64,000 bases of DNA from Mucilaginibacter arboris (GTDB taxonomy: Bacteria; Bacteroidota; Bacteroidia; Sphingobacteriales; Sphingobacteriaceae), in NCBI RefSeq assembly GCF_009754915.1, contig NZ_WPIK01000001.1, forward strand, positions 62,001-126,000. Reading direction: 5' to 3'. Position numbers and translations under genes: made by a program. Shown piece by piece: positions 6,442 through 27,212 of this stretch (positions are counted from its first letter, which is position 1; every line of letters begins with the position of its first letter). The notes beneath the pieces were generated by a model. That model saw nothing but the letters and a program-made list of their open reading frames with translations, was not told the origin of the DNA and did not search any database.

Positions 6442-8370
6442 ATGGAAGTACAGGCGGGTAAACTTTTACAGCAGATTAATTACCCTTCTGATTTAAAGAA
6501 ATTTAATGAAGAAGACCTCCCGGAAATATCTCAGGAACTGAGGCAATATATTATTGATATTGTTTCTGTTAACGGAGGCCATTTTGGTGCGAGTTTAGGT
6601 GTGGTTGAATTAACTGTTGCACTTCATTATGTTTTAAATACCCCTTATGACCAATTGGTTTGGGATGTTGGCCATCAGGCTTACGGGCATAAAATTTTAA
6701 CCGGCCGCCGCGAAATTTTTTATACAAACAGGTTGTATAAAGGCATCAGCGGTTTCCCAAAACGTGCTGAAAGTATTTATGATACTTTTGGCGTTGGCCA
6801 CTCTTCCACTTCTATTTCTGCTGCTTTAGGTATGGCTGTTGCTTCGCACCGAAAAGGCGAGCACGACCGCCAGCATGTTGCCGTTATTGGCGATGGAGCG
6901 ATGACAGGCGGAATGGCTTTTGAAGCTTTGAACCATGCCGGTATCGAAAATTCTAATTTGCTGGTTATTTTGAATGATAACTGCATGTCTATCGACCCGA
7001 ACGTTGGTGCACTGAAAGAATATCTGACCAATATTTCTACTTCGCGTTCTTACAATCGTTTCCGCGATGAAGTCAGTCATATTTTAGCTAAAATTTCTGC
7101 CCTTGGCCCTGATGCTTTCCAGATTGCAAAAAAGCTGGAGAAAAGCATTAAAGGGACTATCCTTAAAAACAGCAATCTTTTTGAATCTTTACAGTTTCGG
7201 TATTTCGGCCCGGTTGACGGGCATAATGTAAAGCAATTGGTAAAGGTTTTAAAAGATTTGCGTGATATTCCGGGACCGAAACTGCTGCATTGTATTACCG
7301 TTAAAGGCAAAGGCTATGCTTTGGCAGAAAAAGACCAAACGGTTTGGCACGCACCCGGCCTTTTTGATAAAATTACAGGAGAAATAAAAAAACCCGTTTA
7401 CGATAAACCAAAGCCACCCAAATACCAGGATGTTTTTGGCGAAACGATTATAGAACTTGCAGAAAATAATCCTAAAATTATAGGCATTACCCCTGCTATG
7501 CCTTCCGGTTCTTCGTTAAATTTAATGATGAAAGCGATGCCGGAAAGAGCTTTTGATGTGGGGATTGCAGAACAACATGCGGTAACTTTTTCGGCTGGTT
7601 TGGCTACACAAGGCATGGTTCCCTTCTGTAATATTTATTCCAGCTTTATGCAGCGTGGTTATGACCAGATGGTCCATGATGTTGCGATACAAAAACTAAA
7701 CGTTGTTTTTTGCTTAGACCGGGCGGGGTTAGCCGGCGCTGATGGCCCGACACATCATGGCGCTTATGACCTGGCTTATATGCGTTGTATCCCTAATATG
7801 ATTGTTTCTGCCCCAATGAACGAAGAAGAACTCAGAAATCTGATGTTTACAGCACAGCAGGAAAATATGGGGCCGTTTTCAATTCGTTATCCTCGTGGAA
7901 ATGGCGTAATGGTAAACTGGCAGAAACCAATGAAAGCTTTACCAATTGGCAAAGGGCGAAGGATTTGTGATGGAGAAGAAGTTGCCATTTTAACTATCGG
8001 CACGATTGGAAATGAAGCGGTAAAAGCAGTACAAACCTTAAACCAGGAAGGTATTTATCCTGCACATTACGATCTTCGTTTTGTTAAACCACTGGATGAA
8101 GAGCTGCTGCACGAAGTATTTAAAAAGTTTGACCAGGTTATTACCGTTGAAGATGGTTGCCTGCAAGGTGGAATGGGCAGCGCAGTAATAGAATTTATGG
8201 CTGATAAAGGTTATGCAGCAAAAGTAGTGCGTTTAGGTATTCCAGATCGTTTTATTGAACATGGCGAGCAACCTGAATTATGGGCAGAATGCGGTTATGA
8301 TGCTGCATCTATTTCTACACAAGTAAAAAAATTAGCTGTAAAAAGAGCAACGCAAACTATAGCTTCGTGA
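6442..8370 (+). CDS. dxs: 1-deoxy-D-xylulose-5-phosphate synthase
   Basis: A 642-residue thiamine-diphosphate transketolase-type enzyme that condenses pyruvate and glyceraldehyde 3-phosphate, the first step of the MEP isoprenoid route. The N-terminal TPP domain has WDVGHQAYGHKILTGR and the metal-binding GDGAMTGGMAFEALNHAG (about residues 150-167); the middle domain has DVGIAEQHAVTFSAGLA and DRAGLAGADGPTHHG. Length and ATG start are normal. The TGA stop (8368-8370) is fused to a motif copy. No other MEP gene is in the window. Confidence 0.96.
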   Translation: MEVQAGKLLQQINYPSDLKKFNEEDLPEISQELRQYIIDIVSVNGGHFGASLGVVELTVALHYVLNTPYDQLVWDVGHQAYGHKILTGRREIFYTNRLYKGISGFPKRAESIYDTFGVGHSSTSISAALGMAVASHRKGEHDRQHVAVIGDGAMTGGMAFEALNHAGIENSNLLVILNDNCMSIDPNVGALKEYLTNISTSRSYNRFRDEVSHILAKISALGPDAFQIAKKLEKSIKGTILKNSNLFESLQFRYFGPVDGHNVKQLVKVLKDLRDIPGPKLLHCITVKGKGYALAEKDQTVWHAPGLFDKITGEIKKPVYDKPKPPKYQDVFGETIIELAENNPKIIGITPAMPSGSSLNLMMKAMPERAFDVGIAEQHAVTFSAGLATQGMVPFCNIYSSFMQRGYDQMVHDVAIQKLNVVFCLDRAGLAGADGPTHHGAYDLAYMRCIPNMIVSAPMNEEELRNLMFTAQQENMGPFSIRYPRGNGVMVNWQKPMKALPIGKGRRICDGEEVAILTIGTIGNEAVKAVQTLNQEGIYPAHYDLRFVKPLDEELLHEVFKKFDQVITVEDGCLQGGMGSAVIEFMADKGYAAKVVRLGIPDRFIEHGEQPELWAECGYDAASISTQVKKLAVKRATQTIAS

Positions 8371-23418: not shown

Positions 23419-23431
23419 ATAAAAACAGCAT
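23419..23431 (+). repeat. Sister-form motif copy at the upp stop
   Basis: GATAAAAACAGCAT; the motif (23419-23431) ends on the first base of the upp stop codon in the 30-base upp-yjjG gap. Confidence 0.7.
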
Positions 23432-24075
23432 TAAACTTTCTCTCCAAAACTCAAATCGCCGGCATCGCCCAAACCAGGAATAATGTAGGAGTAACTGTTC
23501 ATTTCCTGATCAACAGAACCAACCCAAATATGCGCTTCCAGCAAGTTTTCATGTACATATTTTAAACCATTGGCACTTGCAATTACTGCTGCAATATGTA
23601 GTTCTTTTATCTTGTATTTTTCTTGCAAACGCTTGCAAACCTGCACAATGCTTTGTCCGCTTGCTAACATCGTATCGCACATAATTACAGTTTGCCCGTC
23701 TAAGTTTGGACTTGAAATATGTTCAACCTGAATCGTAAAATCATGATTTGAATCTGTTTTACGATAAGCAGTAATAAAAGCCGAAGCCGAACGGTCAAAA
23801 AAGTTTAAAAAACCTTGATGAAAAGGCAAACCGGCACGTAAAATCGTGGCCAAAACTGGCTGTGCCGAAGGCAGGTTTACTTTTGCAATACCAAGCGGTG
23901 TTTTTACTTCCGTTTCCTCATAATCCAGTTTCTTGCTGATTTCGTACGCCAGAATTTCGCCTAAACGTGTTTGGTTATGGCGAAAACGATGCGGATTTTG
24001 CTGAGTATGTACGTTGCGCATTTCGGCAATAAATCGGTTTGCAACCGAGTTGGTTTGATCGAGCTGGAAAATCAT
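23431..24075 (-). CDS. upp: Uracil phosphoribosyltransferase
   Basis: A 214-residue enzyme that converts uracil and PRPP into UMP (pyrimidine salvage). The PRPP loop is MCDTMLASGQS (about 131-141), and the uracil-binding end IIPGLGDAGDLSFG is present; TILRAGLPFHQGF is the conserved middle segment. Length is usual. Paired with yjjG downstream. A sister-form motif copy touches its stop. Confidence 0.92.
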   Translation of the reverse strand: MIFQLDQTNSVANRFIAEMRNVHTQQNPHRFRHNQTRLGEILAYEISKKLDYEETEVKTPLGIAKVNLPSAQPVLATILRAGLPFHQGFLNFFDRSASAFITAYRKTDSNHDFTIQVEHISSPNLDGQTVIMCDTMLASGQSIVQVCKRLQEKYKIKELHIAAVIASANGLKYVHENLLEAHIWVGSVDQEMNSYSYIIPGLGDAGDLSFGEKV

Positions 24076-24123
24076 GCAGCGAAATTAGTGCTTTTTTTGA
24101 AGGTTGGGTTTTAGGAGAAAGCA

Positions 24124-24136
24124 ATACTGTTTTTAT
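24124..24136 (-). repeat. Motif variant upstream of upp
   Basis: Plus strand ATACTGTTTTTAT, the sister form with a T-for-C change; a degenerate facing half (GATAAAAGTTGTA) follows at 24140. Confidence 0.5.
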
Positions 24137-24167
24137 AGGGATAAAAGTTGTAGTTTGATTTCAATTT

Positions 24168-24195
24168 TTTGTTTAAACTTTTATTACTATTTTTG
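24168..24195 (+). promoter_or_regulatory. Candidate promoter for the structured RNA
   Basis: TTTG (24168-24171), a 16-base spacer and TATTTTTG (24188-24195) fit the Bacteroidota -33/-7 pattern with a slightly short spacer. A transcript would begin near 24201, at the base of the RNA stem. Confidence 0.4.
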
Positions 24196-24198
24196 TGT

Positions 24199-24266
24199 AA
24201 AGCTCTGTAGCTCACGAACGCCTAAGTTCCACTTGGGAAATTGATGTAGTGAGAATGGAGCTTTTT
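24199..24266 (+). ncRNA. Candidate structured RNA next to the DUF3800 gene
   Basis: A 66-base extended hairpin: P1 AAAGCTC (24199-24205) with GAGCTTT (24258-24264); P2 CTCAC (24211-24215) with GTGAG (24249-24253); P3 CCTAAG (24221-24226) with CTTGGG (24232-24237, one G-U pair) closed by a five-base loop TTCCA. Purine-rich internal bulges separate the stems, and on the plus strand P1 runs into a seven-T tract that overlaps the stop codon of the DUF3800 gene. It could be an independent plus-strand RNA with the promoter at 24168-24195, or the 3-prime hairpin of the DUF3800 mRNA. Structured RNA motifs named after DUF3800 have been reported beside such genes; whether this belongs to one is untested. 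Confidence 0.5.
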
Positions 24267-25091
24267 TTATTTATACAAGTTTTCATCTATCTCTACGTTT
24301 GCTGCAGTAAATTTCCAATGCCGGTAAGGTTGCTCCCACTTATCCGATTCTACATTTGTACCTGTACTTATTCCAATATTAAACCCTGATTTTATCTCTC
24401 TGATATACTTGTTGATATGCTTATATAACTTTTCTTTAGCAATAGTTTTTTTACCTCTTCGTTTTTGCCCTTGTGGTTTTTCTTTGTGCAAATCGTTCAA
24501 ACGAAAAGCCATACTGCCTAATACAATATCTAAGCATTGCAGTATTAAATGTTTTTTTGAATCTACTTCTGTAATGTCCTCTTTTCTAAATTTAATACGC
24601 GCCAATTGGAATTTCCGCTGGCTTTGTAAACCTTTAATATACTCCTTAAACTGCTGCCGCTTTTCTAAAGTATCTGGCAAATAATCAAAATATGCCCTAA
24701 CAAAAACAGGCTTTAAACCTGGATTGCTATAAGGCAGACCAAAAGCATGTTTAAAAAACTGATAATACAACAGAAAATATTCGTTTTCTAAATGTTCATT
24801 TGTTAAACCTAAAGGTTTTTCTGCATTTTGAGTAAACATAATGCGGACTTTAACTTTTCCGGATTTTAACAACCTAAAAAACTCATCCATTAGTGTTTTA
24901 TACTTTTCGAGATAAGCCGTCGATACTTTTACCCACTTTAATTCATCCTTTAAAAACAACTCCTTACACACCTTTTGCAAACATGAATTTACATATTTTA
25001 AATCCTTTGCCTGCACTAAAACACCTCCGTAGAAGTTAGAATAATACTTTCCCTTTTTTACCGACTCATCACACCAAATACAATATTCCAC
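24267..25091 (-). CDS. DUF3800 protein (RNase H-like fold predicted)
   Basis: A 274-residue DUF3800 protein. The diagnostic acidic motif CDES is at residues 7-10 with further candidates Asp136 (AYFDYLPD), Asp177 and the QCLD motif with Gln185 and Asp188, a set that matches the family's likely metal-binding nuclease-like site. A Lys/Arg-rich patch (QGQKRRGKKTIAKEKLYK) suggests nucleic-acid binding. DUF3800 genes are scattered by transfer and often sit near mobile or defence genes, and their activity is not established. Here it is flanked by housekeeping genes (upp, uvrB), and its stop codon overlaps the T-tract of the candidate RNA at 24199-24266. Confidence 0.8.
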   Translation of the reverse strand: MEYCIWCDESVKKGKYYSNFYGGVLVQAKDLKYVNSCLQKVCKELFLKDELKWVKVSTAYLEKYKTLMDEFFRLLKSGKVKVRIMFTQNAEKPLGLTNEHLENEYFLLYYQFFKHAFGLPYSNPGLKPVFVRAYFDYLPDTLEKRQQFKEYIKGLQSQRKFQLARIKFRKEDITEVDSKKHLILQCLDIVLGSMAFRLNDLHKEKPQGQKRRGKKTIAKEKLYKHINKYIREIKSGFNIGISTGTNVESDKWEQPYRHWKFTAANVEIDENLYK

Positions 25092-25184
25092 TAAGATTTT
25101 ATTAAAATTCCTGACATTTCAAAGATAGAAAAAAGCTATATTCCTTAGCATTTCAGCAGCATTCTTCGTACTTTTATCTTTCCG

Positions 25185-27212
25185 ATGGATTTTAAATTAA
25201 CCTCACAATATAAACCTTCCGGCGATCAGCCGGAAGCAATTAAACAACTGGTTCAAGGTATTGAAAATGGCGATAATTACCAGACTTTGCTGGGCGTTAC
25301 CGGTTCGGGCAAAACGTTTAGTATTGCCAATGTGATCCAGGAAACGCAGAAACCGACGCTTGTTTTAAGTCATAATAAAACACTGGCGGCACAGCTTTAT
25401 GGGGAGTTCAAGCAGTTTTTTCCGGAAAACGCCGTAAACTATTTTGTTTCTTATTACGATTACTATCAGCCTGAAGCCTTTATTCCATCTTCCAATACTT
25501 ATATCGAAAAGGATTTGCAGATCAACGAAGAAATTGAAAAGCTTCGTTTACGCACTACTTCTGCGTTGATGTCCGGCCGGCGTGATATTATTGTCGTTTC
25601 ATCCATTTCCTGCATTTATGGTATGGGAAACCCGGAAGATTTTTCCAATTCTGTTTTCCGTTTTGCAGTTGGAACGCGAATTAGCAGAAATGCTTTTTTG
25701 CATCGTTTGGTCGAGATTTTATATGCGCGGACCACGGCCGATTTTAAACGCGGAACTTTTCGTGTAAAAGGTGATGTGGTAGAAATTTATCCGGCTTATC
25801 TGGATTATGCATACCGCATCAATTTTTATGGTGATGACATTGAAGAGCTAAGTACGTTTGATGTTTCTAACGGAAAAACGTTAGAAAAAATGGAAAACAT
25901 GGTTGTTTTTCCAGCCAATTTATATGTGGCTCCGCGAGAACGTTTCCAGCAATCAGTTTGGGCAATTCAGGAAGAATTGGAAACGCGCAAAAAGCAGTTC
26001 ATTGAGGACGGCCGTTTCCTGGAAGCAAAACGACTGGAAGAAAGGGTCAATTACGATCTGGAAATGATCCGTGAACTGGGTTATTGCTCCGGTATTGAAA
26101 ATTATTCCCGCTTTTTTGATGGAAGACAACCAGGAATGCGACCTTTCTGCTTGCTGGATTATTTCCCGAAGGATTATTTAATGGTGATTGATGAAAGCCA
26201 CGTTACCGTTCCGCAAATTCGTGCCATGTATGGCGGCGACCGTTCCCGCAAAATATCGTTGGTCGAATATGGTTTTCGTTTGCCTGCGGCGATGGATAAC
26301 CGTCCGCTTAACTTTCAGGAATTTGAAAGATTAGCACCACAAACCATTTATGTAAGTGCAACACCTGGAGATTTTGAGTTGGAAAAATCAGAAGGTGTAG
26401 TGATTGAGCAGGTTATCCGGCCAACCGGACTTTTGGATCCGGTAATTGAAGTCCGGCCTGTCATAAACCAGGTTGATGATTTACTGGAAGAAGTTGACCA
26501 AACTATTAAAAAAGGCGACCGGATTTTGGTAACCACATTAACCAAACGTATGGCAGAAGAACTGGCTAAATACATGGACCGCCTTAACATTAAATGCCGC
26601 TACATTCACTCTGAAGTAAAAACGTTAGAACGCGTAGAAATTTTACGCGGCTTGCGTTTGGGCGAATTTGATGTATTGATTGGTATAAACTTATTACGTG
26701 AAGGTTTGGATTTGCCGGAAGTTTCTTTGGTAGCAATTCTGGATGCCGATAAAGAAGGATTTTTACGGTCAGAAAGATCACTAATCCAAACCATTGGACG
26801 AGCTGCAAGAAATGATCGTGGACGCGTTATTATGTATGCTGATAAAATTACAGATTCAATGCAAATTACGATGGACGAAACCAATCGTCGCCGGGATAAG
26901 CAGATCCAATACAATTTAGAGCATGGAATTGTGCCGAAAACAGTTGGAAAATCTCGCGAAGCTATTATCGAACAAACTTCTGTAATGGATTTTAAAGGTG
27001 GTGTACAGCAGGCGTATGTGGAACAGGATGTTGCAGATAACATTGCTGCTGATCCGATTGTACAATACATGAGCAAACCGGAACTGAAAAAAGCCATCGA
27101 CAATACTAAAAAAGAGATGCTAAAAGCAGCAAAAGACATGGATTTTCTCGGCGCAGCCAAACTACGTGATGAAATGTTTGCGCTCGAAAAAATGATGACA
27201 GAGAAATTTTAG
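25185..27212 (+). CDS. uvrB: Excinuclease ABC subunit B
   Basis: A 675-residue nucleotide-excision-repair helicase. Walker A LGVTGSGKT lies at about 38-46, the beta-hairpin YYDYYQPEAFIP follows, motif II is MVIDESHVT, helicase motif VI is QTIGRAARN, and the C-terminal UVR domain (about 635-675) ends LRDEMFALEKMM. It works with UvrA and UvrC, which are not in the window. No SOS-type operator was recognised upstream. A palindromic motif pair follows the stop by 4 bases. Confidence 0.96.
   Translation: MDFKLTSQYKPSGDQPEAIKQLVQGIENGDNYQTLLGVTGSGKTFSIANVIQETQKPTLVLSHNKTLAAQLYGEFKQFFPENAVNYFVSYYDYYQPEAFIPSSNTYIEKDLQINEEIEKLRLRTTSALMSGRRDIIVVSSISCIYGMGNPEDFSNSVFRFAVGTRISRNAFLHRLVEILYARTTADFKRGTFRVKGDVVEIYPAYLDYAYRINFYGDDIEELSTFDVSNGKTLEKMENMVVFPANLYVAPRERFQQSVWAIQEELETRKKQFIEDGRFLEAKRLEERVNYDLEMIRELGYCSGIENYSRFFDGRQPGMRPFCLLDYFPKDYLMVIDESHVTVPQIRAMYGGDRSRKISLVEYGFRLPAAMDNRPLNFQEFERLAPQTIYVSATPGDFELEKSEGVVIEQVIRPTGLLDPVIEVRPVINQVDDLLEEVDQTIKKGDRILVTTLTKRMAEELAKYMDRLNIKCRYIHSEVKTLERVEILRGLRLGEFDVLIGINLLREGLDLPEVSLVAILDADKEGFLRSERSLIQTIGRAARNDRGRVIMYADKITDSMQITMDETNRRRDKQIQYNLEHGIVPKTVGKSREAIIEQTSVMDFKGGVQQAYVEQDVADNIAADPIVQYMSKPELKKAIDNTKKEMLKAAKDMDFLGAAKLRDEMFALEKMMTEKF

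Follow-up and report, generated by a model that had tools for sequence, protein, structure and literature searches.

The locus raises the question of whether the compact hairpin that lies against a DUF3800 gene in Mucilaginibacter arboris is a working partner of the encoded protein or simply a terminator, and what a partner RNA would do. The sequence-only reading of this DNA had proposed both, the partner being an RNA of toxin-antitoxin or defense type. The comparisons described here appear to favor the toxin-antitoxin or defense reading, through the pattern of gene loss and the character of the neighboring genes. Coordinates refer to the window, the whole stretch of 64,000 nucleotides that was analyzed, in which the following features were assigned.

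24168–24171, + strand: TTTG, possible −33 box of the RNA (spacer 16)
24188–24195, + strand: −7 promoter box of the RNA, TAnnTTTG, of the Bacteroidota type (TATTTTTG)
24199–24264, + strand: DUF3800-VIII RNA (RF03075), about 66–70 nt, assigned from the Rfam match, the fold and model R1
24262–24268, + strand: run of seven T, putative intrinsic terminator of the RNA, overlapping the DUF3800 stop codon (24267–24269)
24267–25091, − strand: DUF3800 gene, 274 aa, GTG start, predicted RNase HII fold, invariant D8, E9, D136 and D188
25120–25127, − strand: possible −7 box of the DUF3800 gene, a match to the TAnnTTTG motif (TATCTTTG)
24099–25104, no strand: approximate extent of the module, which is absent from two congeneric genomes (G396, G417), the left edge being uncertain by some tens of bases

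The RNA is on the + strand, opposite to the DUF3800 gene, and the two lie tail to tail between upp (23431–24075, −) and uvrB (25185–27212, +); the M. arboris genome holds one copy of the RNA. The sole Rfam family to score above its cut-off within the 64-kb window is RF03075 (DUF3800-VIII), which matches positions 24199–24264 of the + strand with 57 bits (gathering score 40.2, E 4.8e-8), and our model R1, built from 61 sequences that include the window itself, places the RNA at 24199–24265 with 73.7 bits. The predicted structure is a single long hairpin of three stacked helices with internal loops between them, with a folding energy of −22.6 kcal/mol for the + strand (z −3.3) and −17.1 kcal/mol for the − strand (z −2.5), and the three-stem, 66-base hairpin described earlier is thus borne out. 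The promoter-like elements ascribed to it are likewise present just upstream, the RNA starting four bases past the end of the TAnnTTTG box; it should be noted that this motif has 89 occurrences in the window, both strands counted, and that the spacer of 16 is slightly short relative to what we take to be the consensus. The hairpin with its T-tract had been said to end exactly on the stop codon, and the T-tract does overlap that codon, with an exactness that holds only to within two or three bases. Compared with the RF03075 family, the locus has a score above the cut-off, the same structure and the same position beside a DUF3800 gene, and nothing was found to set it apart; at the level of sequence it is confirmed as a further member, together with its protein, of an RNA family already described. 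The original paper on DUF3800-linked RNA motifs is reportedly that of Weinberg et al. in 2017; motifs I, VIII, and IX were encountered in this work, and we know of no established function for any of the DUF3800-linked RNAs. What is new here is the orientation, the promoter and terminator, the fold, the loss pattern, the genomic context and the lone RNAs. The genome of Bacillus subtilis, which served as a control, also matches RF03075 above the cut-off.

The conservation of the hairpin as a structure is clear from the 61 sequences, in which 94.4% of base-pair cells pair, as against 76.0% in shuffles and at most 50.0% when the partner is slid; 13 of the 16 pairs vary on both sides, and the covariation score is 0.650 compared with 0.286 for shuffled data. 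G-U cells outnumber A-C cells by 112 to 12, an excess indicating that in convergent loci the RNA folds from the strand opposite the gene. Conservation is highest in the CGAA/GUAG internal loop, which may resemble the bulged-G (loop E) motif, and in the outer stem, GCCCUG/GGGGC; the apical hairpin is variable. The internal loop is conserved from Bacteroidota to Bacillota.

The protein matches the DUF3800 profile PF12686 (E 4.7e-9, 37.5 bits, gathering score 21), the only Pfam profile found at E 0.001; there is no match to the RNase HII profile, and the protein is therefore not filed as an RNase HII. Its predicted fold is nevertheless that of RNase HII. The AlphaFold2 model has a pLDDT of 95.0 with 45 sequences in the alignment (81.2 with five), and in a VIA-align comparison its best solved match is RNase HII 1eke_A (Z 10.0, rmsd 3.8, 174 residues aligned, 10% identity in the structural alignment), with ranks 1–20 all occupied by RNase HII, H2 or HIII, and Argonaute and RNase HI lower; a Foldseek search with the model gave E 3.3e-4, and a sequence search against the PDB gave no match. 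No ToxN or AbiQ chain is among the fold matches listed, the best of which are RNase H2 entries, an outcome that excludes nothing. The acidic motifs that had been taken as nuclease-like, CDES (D8-E9) and QCLD (D188), proved to be invariant, together with D136, in 90 of 90 aligned homologues, a number that includes near-copies and is what remains of 100 proteins after removal of 10 that were broken or cut by a contig end. A consecutive Asp-Glu at the end of strand 1 is a further feature in common with RNase HII. An RNase H fold for DUF3800 has been reported earlier, in the available parts of two papers (PMC10910872, PMC12669027). DUF3800 itself is a candidate in the PADLOC defense collection, whose model PDC-M04A matches the window protein with E 2.8e-14; no paper was found in a literature search on PDC-M04.

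The association of gene and RNA was examined in a scan of genome contigs with five query proteins, which yielded 167 relatives, the best 80 of which (about 20 being near-copies from Bacilli MAGs) were analyzed and the weaker 87 left unseen. In all of these 80 the hairpin is kept and covaries, at 76 nt or less from the end of the protein match, so the proposed conserved protein-RNA pair holds up, and the refuting observation that had been named, a hairpin lacking conservation and covariation beside other DUF3800 genes, was not made. It should be recognized that R1 was built from 61 of the sequences that it later found; the independent check is the Rfam model, which finds the RNA in 12 of the 12 loci, taken from the 80, that were given to it. 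The arrangement is convergent in 79 of the 80, the exception being an Alicyclobacillus locus (L049) with the RNA on the gene's strand. Only one further RNA match was found at E 0.1 in the 840,766 bases of these loci; it lies close to a contig end, 3.6 kb from the first (L060, 476–541). In viral loci the RNA is present in 16 of 17, one of the 16 being truncated at the contig end; the gene of the remaining locus extends past the end of its contig. Among genome and viral loci together, none of the 96 that are not cut before the RNA has a gene without it. The RNA is downstream and on the gene's strand in L127 and L131, and upstream of the gene in L129. RNA was not found beside three more distant DUF3800 genes (L011, L012, and L014, 26–33% identity), and the pairing therefore holds for this subfamily only. 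RNA and protein distances are correlated (Mantel r 0.58, 0 of 2000 permutations, 56 loci), and the protein tree of 54 rows has 14 phylum changes, where the least possible is 11 and shuffles give 33.9; recent spread between phyla is not claimed, as the tree mostly tracks the phyla.

The relationship is not reciprocal. The converse set, of loci found through the RNA, consists of genome-survey hits of at least 38 bits, excluding the window and the centre genomes, which had been found first through the protein; four weaker hits (<35 bits), all gene-less, were dropped. Of its 23 loci, 7 have an intact gene (G127, G070, G547, G546, G1023, G659, and G1337, with G127 and G1337 also present in the gene-first set as L048 and L107), 4 have a broken gene (G571 twice, perhaps one locus assembled twice in a genome with 7% contamination, G698 and G704), and 12 have none, a remnant or a different DUF3800 gene. 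Several of the solo loci retain the last codons of the lost gene, and for 9 of the 12 a search of the whole genome at E 0.001 detected no relative of the gene; in G159, G902, and G124 it returned weak matches or matches to other DUF3800 genes. Within the gene-first set, 7 of the 80 loci have in-frame stops in an otherwise full-length frame, a count that stands without a control rate. The RNA beside these genes scores 58–74 bits in six and only 25 in L045. The 8 stops comprise 4 TAA, 1 TAG, and 3 TGA, and recoding was rejected on the ground that all three kinds occur. Sequencing or assembly error is not excluded as their source; four of the seven loci (L042, L045, L071, and L113) are titled as isolates and not as MAGs.

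In five solo loci of one genus, the RNA is 92–99% identical in the ten pairs, and in nine of these pairs one flank or both falls to 47–52%. With G159/G540, which are near-identical throughout, set aside, the promoter-side 65 nt are 68–82% identical and the next stretch 49–85%, and the gene side beyond 40 nt is 47–51% identical in seven pairs and 91% in two. From the ratios given above and the 12:1 ratio of gene to RNA length, neutral decay would predict roughly ten or more genes lacking the RNA, none of which was seen; this is a rough estimate made under strong assumptions.

Several solo loci have features of their own. In L029 (G124), an N-terminal fragment of a DUF3800-VIII-type gene (6928–7035, 36 residues matched) precedes a DUF3800 gene of a different type (L029 7105–7773, L006 74–745; PDC-M04A, E 8.4e-83) and a 165-aa open reading frame, with the RNA retained, and one DUF3800 system may have been replaced by another. 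The lone RNAs of L003, L005, L026, L028, and L004 adjoin a gene matched to Schlafen AlbA_2 (L005) or resembling it. Small phage-like genes, possibly a lysis cassette, lie by the lone RNA in L004 and L005, the 191-aa one having no Pfam match.

The neighbors of the module were taken as the proteins at positions −1 and +1 after redundant loci had been dropped and eight loci lacking a clean gene call excluded, which gave 126 of 462 proteins. At E 1e-10 these match 208 PADLOC models, as compared with 3 for 81 control proteins (from 13 of 18 hand-picked 7-kb stretches), a contrast that is overstated by these numbers because a single protein can match many models. The matches include type I, IIG, and III restriction, Hma, AbiU, and JetA. 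In L039 (2811–9947) the module is within an Hma defense locus, between HmaB and HmaC; in two gammaproteobacterial loci (L068, 7256–9853, and L089, 7189–9924) the neighbor is an RNase R-like (RNB) exonuclease.

The module is also found in phages. A 52% relative of the protein is encoded in 14 Riemerella phage records, and in the one examined, phage GRNRAP2 (L013, 3992–4899), the RNA is present, with 30.9 bits from R1 and 34.8 bits, below the cut-off, from Rfam. One of the 14 records is labelled as a Shigella phage (Henu10), perhaps by mistake. Two pattern scans of viral contigs returned 11 stretches, eight of them in contigs new to the analysis; four of these eight have the gene and four (L196, L200, L199, and L191) have the RNA, at 46–61 bits, with no relative of the gene found in their possibly fragmentary records. 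L196 and L200 represent almost one and the same phage region, and their RNA lies at the site of an unrelated terminator in phage SpaA1, which makes its reuse as a terminator possible; the lone RNAs of L199 and L191 have no T-run after them. One further viral-contig pattern gave no match, nor did two short-query blastn searches for lone RNAs in annotated phages, and a pattern match in L202 was rejected after R1 found nothing there.

The traces described above, a gene never found without its RNA, an RNA often found without its gene, in-frame stops in genes whose RNA is retained, defense neighbors and a predicted nuclease fold, are those that an RNA-controlled toxin would be expected to leave. 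The reading to which we give about an even chance is that the RNA is the antidote to a nuclease of the RNase HII fold in a defense or toxin-antitoxin module. In such a two-part RNA-protein module, the DUF3800 protein would be the nuclease, as its predicted fold suggests. The small RNA, probably transcribed from its own opposite-strand promoter and stopped at its own terminator, as the sequence signals indicate, would fold into the long hairpin for which covariation argues, its GAA/GUAG internal loop conserved and its apical hairpin variable, and would bind the DUF3800 protein. Constantly made and probably short-lived, it would block the nuclease until transcription or RNA stability collapsed, for example during phage infection, whereupon the freed nuclease would attack nucleic acid of the cell or phage.

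Several observations weigh against the RNA as antidote. With a gene some 12 times the length of the RNA, neutral decay by itself would break the gene more often. The solo RNAs may be young relics; two solo pairs are 91% identical on the gene side too, and one pair is alike throughout. Solo copies could also be reused terminators, to judge from L196/L200; in L199 and L191 a T-run is lacking. Unlike many addiction modules, the gene is scarce on plasmids, where only two distant DUF3800 genes, 25–26% identical, were found with two query proteins among 72,556 records. Distant DUF3800 genes lack such an RNA, and the promoter signal is missing in many loci. In the accessible DUF3800 literature, which mostly excludes subscription papers, no experiment on gene and RNA jointly was found.

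The absence of RNA-less genes is equally well explained if a DUF3800 ribonucleoprotein effector needs the RNA as cofactor or sensor, to scaffold it, activate it or alert it to infection. The presence of the RNA in all 96 uncut loci, the combination of conserved internal loop and variable apical hairpin, and the correlation of RNA and protein distances are all consistent with this role. A cofactor should decay once its protein is gone, yet in one genus the solo RNAs exceed most of their flanking sequence in conservation, and four viral contigs carry lone RNAs with no gene; we regard a cofactor as possible but the less probable of the two.

If the RNA is an antidote, the gene-less copies could be anti-DUF3800 immunity RNAs, that is, antitoxin mimicry fixed as a genome-encoded counter-defense against the nucleases of hosts or rival phages. 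This is a doubtful proposal, and with the same reserve the carriers of a lone antidote might be the phages or prophages of L196/L200, L199, and L191 and bacteria such as G159, G540, G539, G297, and G089. Phage-borne antitoxin mimics are known for ToxIN, according to the available text of PMC3475682.

The sporadic distribution of the module, together with its RNase H-type fold, would suit a mobile element whose RNA or hairpin acts in transposition or, in an OMEGA-like manner, as a guide for the nuclease, and so would its presence or absence at one site between close relatives. In G396 and G417, close relatives of M. arboris, the upp-uvrB gap is 133 and 156 bp in place of the module, with upp matching to 24098 and uvrB from about 25103–25105. 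The empty sites (L035 and L036) have hairpin-like intergenic sequence, and window positions 24121–24164 match other places in these genomes, so that this intergenic spot seems to collect small repeats. Of 150 other genomes of the family, one has a close relative of the protein (52% identity) and two more weak, partial matches (29–33%) are to another DUF3800 type; a sample of 395 genomes from the phylum gave 8 with the RNA, one of them that of M. arboris, and surveys of one family (36 genomes) and one order (300 genomes) gave only the centre genome. A mobile element is nonetheless improbable: exactly one RNA copy is present in 28 of 30 genomes (two in one, and zero at the threshold in one), the protein tree follows the phyla and, by eye, the RNA is near-constant between close Bacilli loci with no variable guide segment. 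An amplifying element or MITE was rejected on the copy number of one.

About as improbable is that the hairpin is an ordinary, perhaps bidirectional, terminator between convergent genes, with no function in trans. The T-run beside the stop codon and the one phage lineage with the RNA where a relative has a terminator are in keeping with it, and the hairpin does, to judge from its sequence, contain its own terminator. The transcription signals, however, belong to the RNA. They were examined in 80 loci, kept from 100 RNA loci after 20 near-copies were dropped, of which L026–L030 are gene-less. A run of at least four T follows the RNA in 66 of the 80 and follows its complement in 10, which speaks against the suggestion that the hairpin is simply a terminator of the DUF3800 gene. 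Promoter scores of the region directly 5′ of the RNA, with mononucleotide shuffles as reference and the phylum label assigned by the analyst, are 5.15 of 6 against 3.95 shuffled in the 26 Bacteroidota-type loci (12 at p ≤ 0.05) and 8.74 of 12 against 6.92 in the 54 sigma70-type loci (25 at p ≤ 0.05); the signal is absent at p 0.05 in 14 and 29 loci, respectively. Promoter boxes at the RNA 5′ end in many loci, an internal loop conserved across phyla, and an RNA that in L049, L127, L131, and L129 is either co-oriented with the gene or placed before it are all contrary to a plain terminator. Least probable is that the RNA regulates the DUF3800 mRNA in cis as an antisense: in 89 convergent loci (near-copies included) its end does touch or overlap the stop codon, but the two overlap little and by a variable amount (−24 to +20 nt, median 0), and not at all where the RNA is co-oriented or upstream (the same four loci), and solo RNAs persist.

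The antidote reading can be compared with characterized systems. The abiF-motif RNA RCd22 of a Clostridioides difficile prophage neutralizes the AbiF toxin by binding it directly, and does so both in cis and in trans, as described in 2025 in the available part of PMC12373285. As in that system, a conserved structured RNA here lies beside a gene for a protein whose toxicity, shown for AbiF in the same text, is inferred for DUF3800, in a context of prophages and defense. In RCd22/AbiF the protein is related to Cas13 and two repeated motifs precede the gene, whereas the window locus has a single convergent hairpin and a protein predicted to fold like RNase HII. Experiments demonstrated binding and toxicity in the former (from the part of PMC12373285 available), and the latter is known from sequence and predicted fold. 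The proposed nuclease, the structured RNA with its terminator and the defense role also resemble the type III toxin-antitoxin systems ToxIN, CptIN, and TenpIN, which the available text of PMC5086642 defines by repeats upstream of the toxin. The window locus differs in having no tandem repeats or upstream co-transcription and in its predicted fold, and the module may therefore work like a type III system without being one. The likeness to RNase HII/H2 is in the predicted fold, the differences being the low identity, the missing Pfam match and the RNA partner. DUF3800 accessory proteins occur in Cas12a2 (V-A2) and VI-F loci, which are class 2 CRISPR defense loci; their domain is described as an RNase H fold and they are CRISPR-linked, those of Cas12a2 being fused to TPR, and no DUF3800-VIII RNA is named for them in the available parts of PMC10910872 and PMC12669027.

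The present evidence turns one DUF3800 motif into a testable two-component hypothesis, a nuclease with an RNA antidote. To our knowledge, a toxin of the RNase HII fold is a class not known from any RNA-controlled toxin-antitoxin system. The lone RNAs in bacteria and viral contigs are natural test cases for RNA-based counter-defense. If the hypothesis is true, the other DUF3800 motifs and the DUF3800 proteins of V-A2 and VI-F CRISPR loci would gain a working model.
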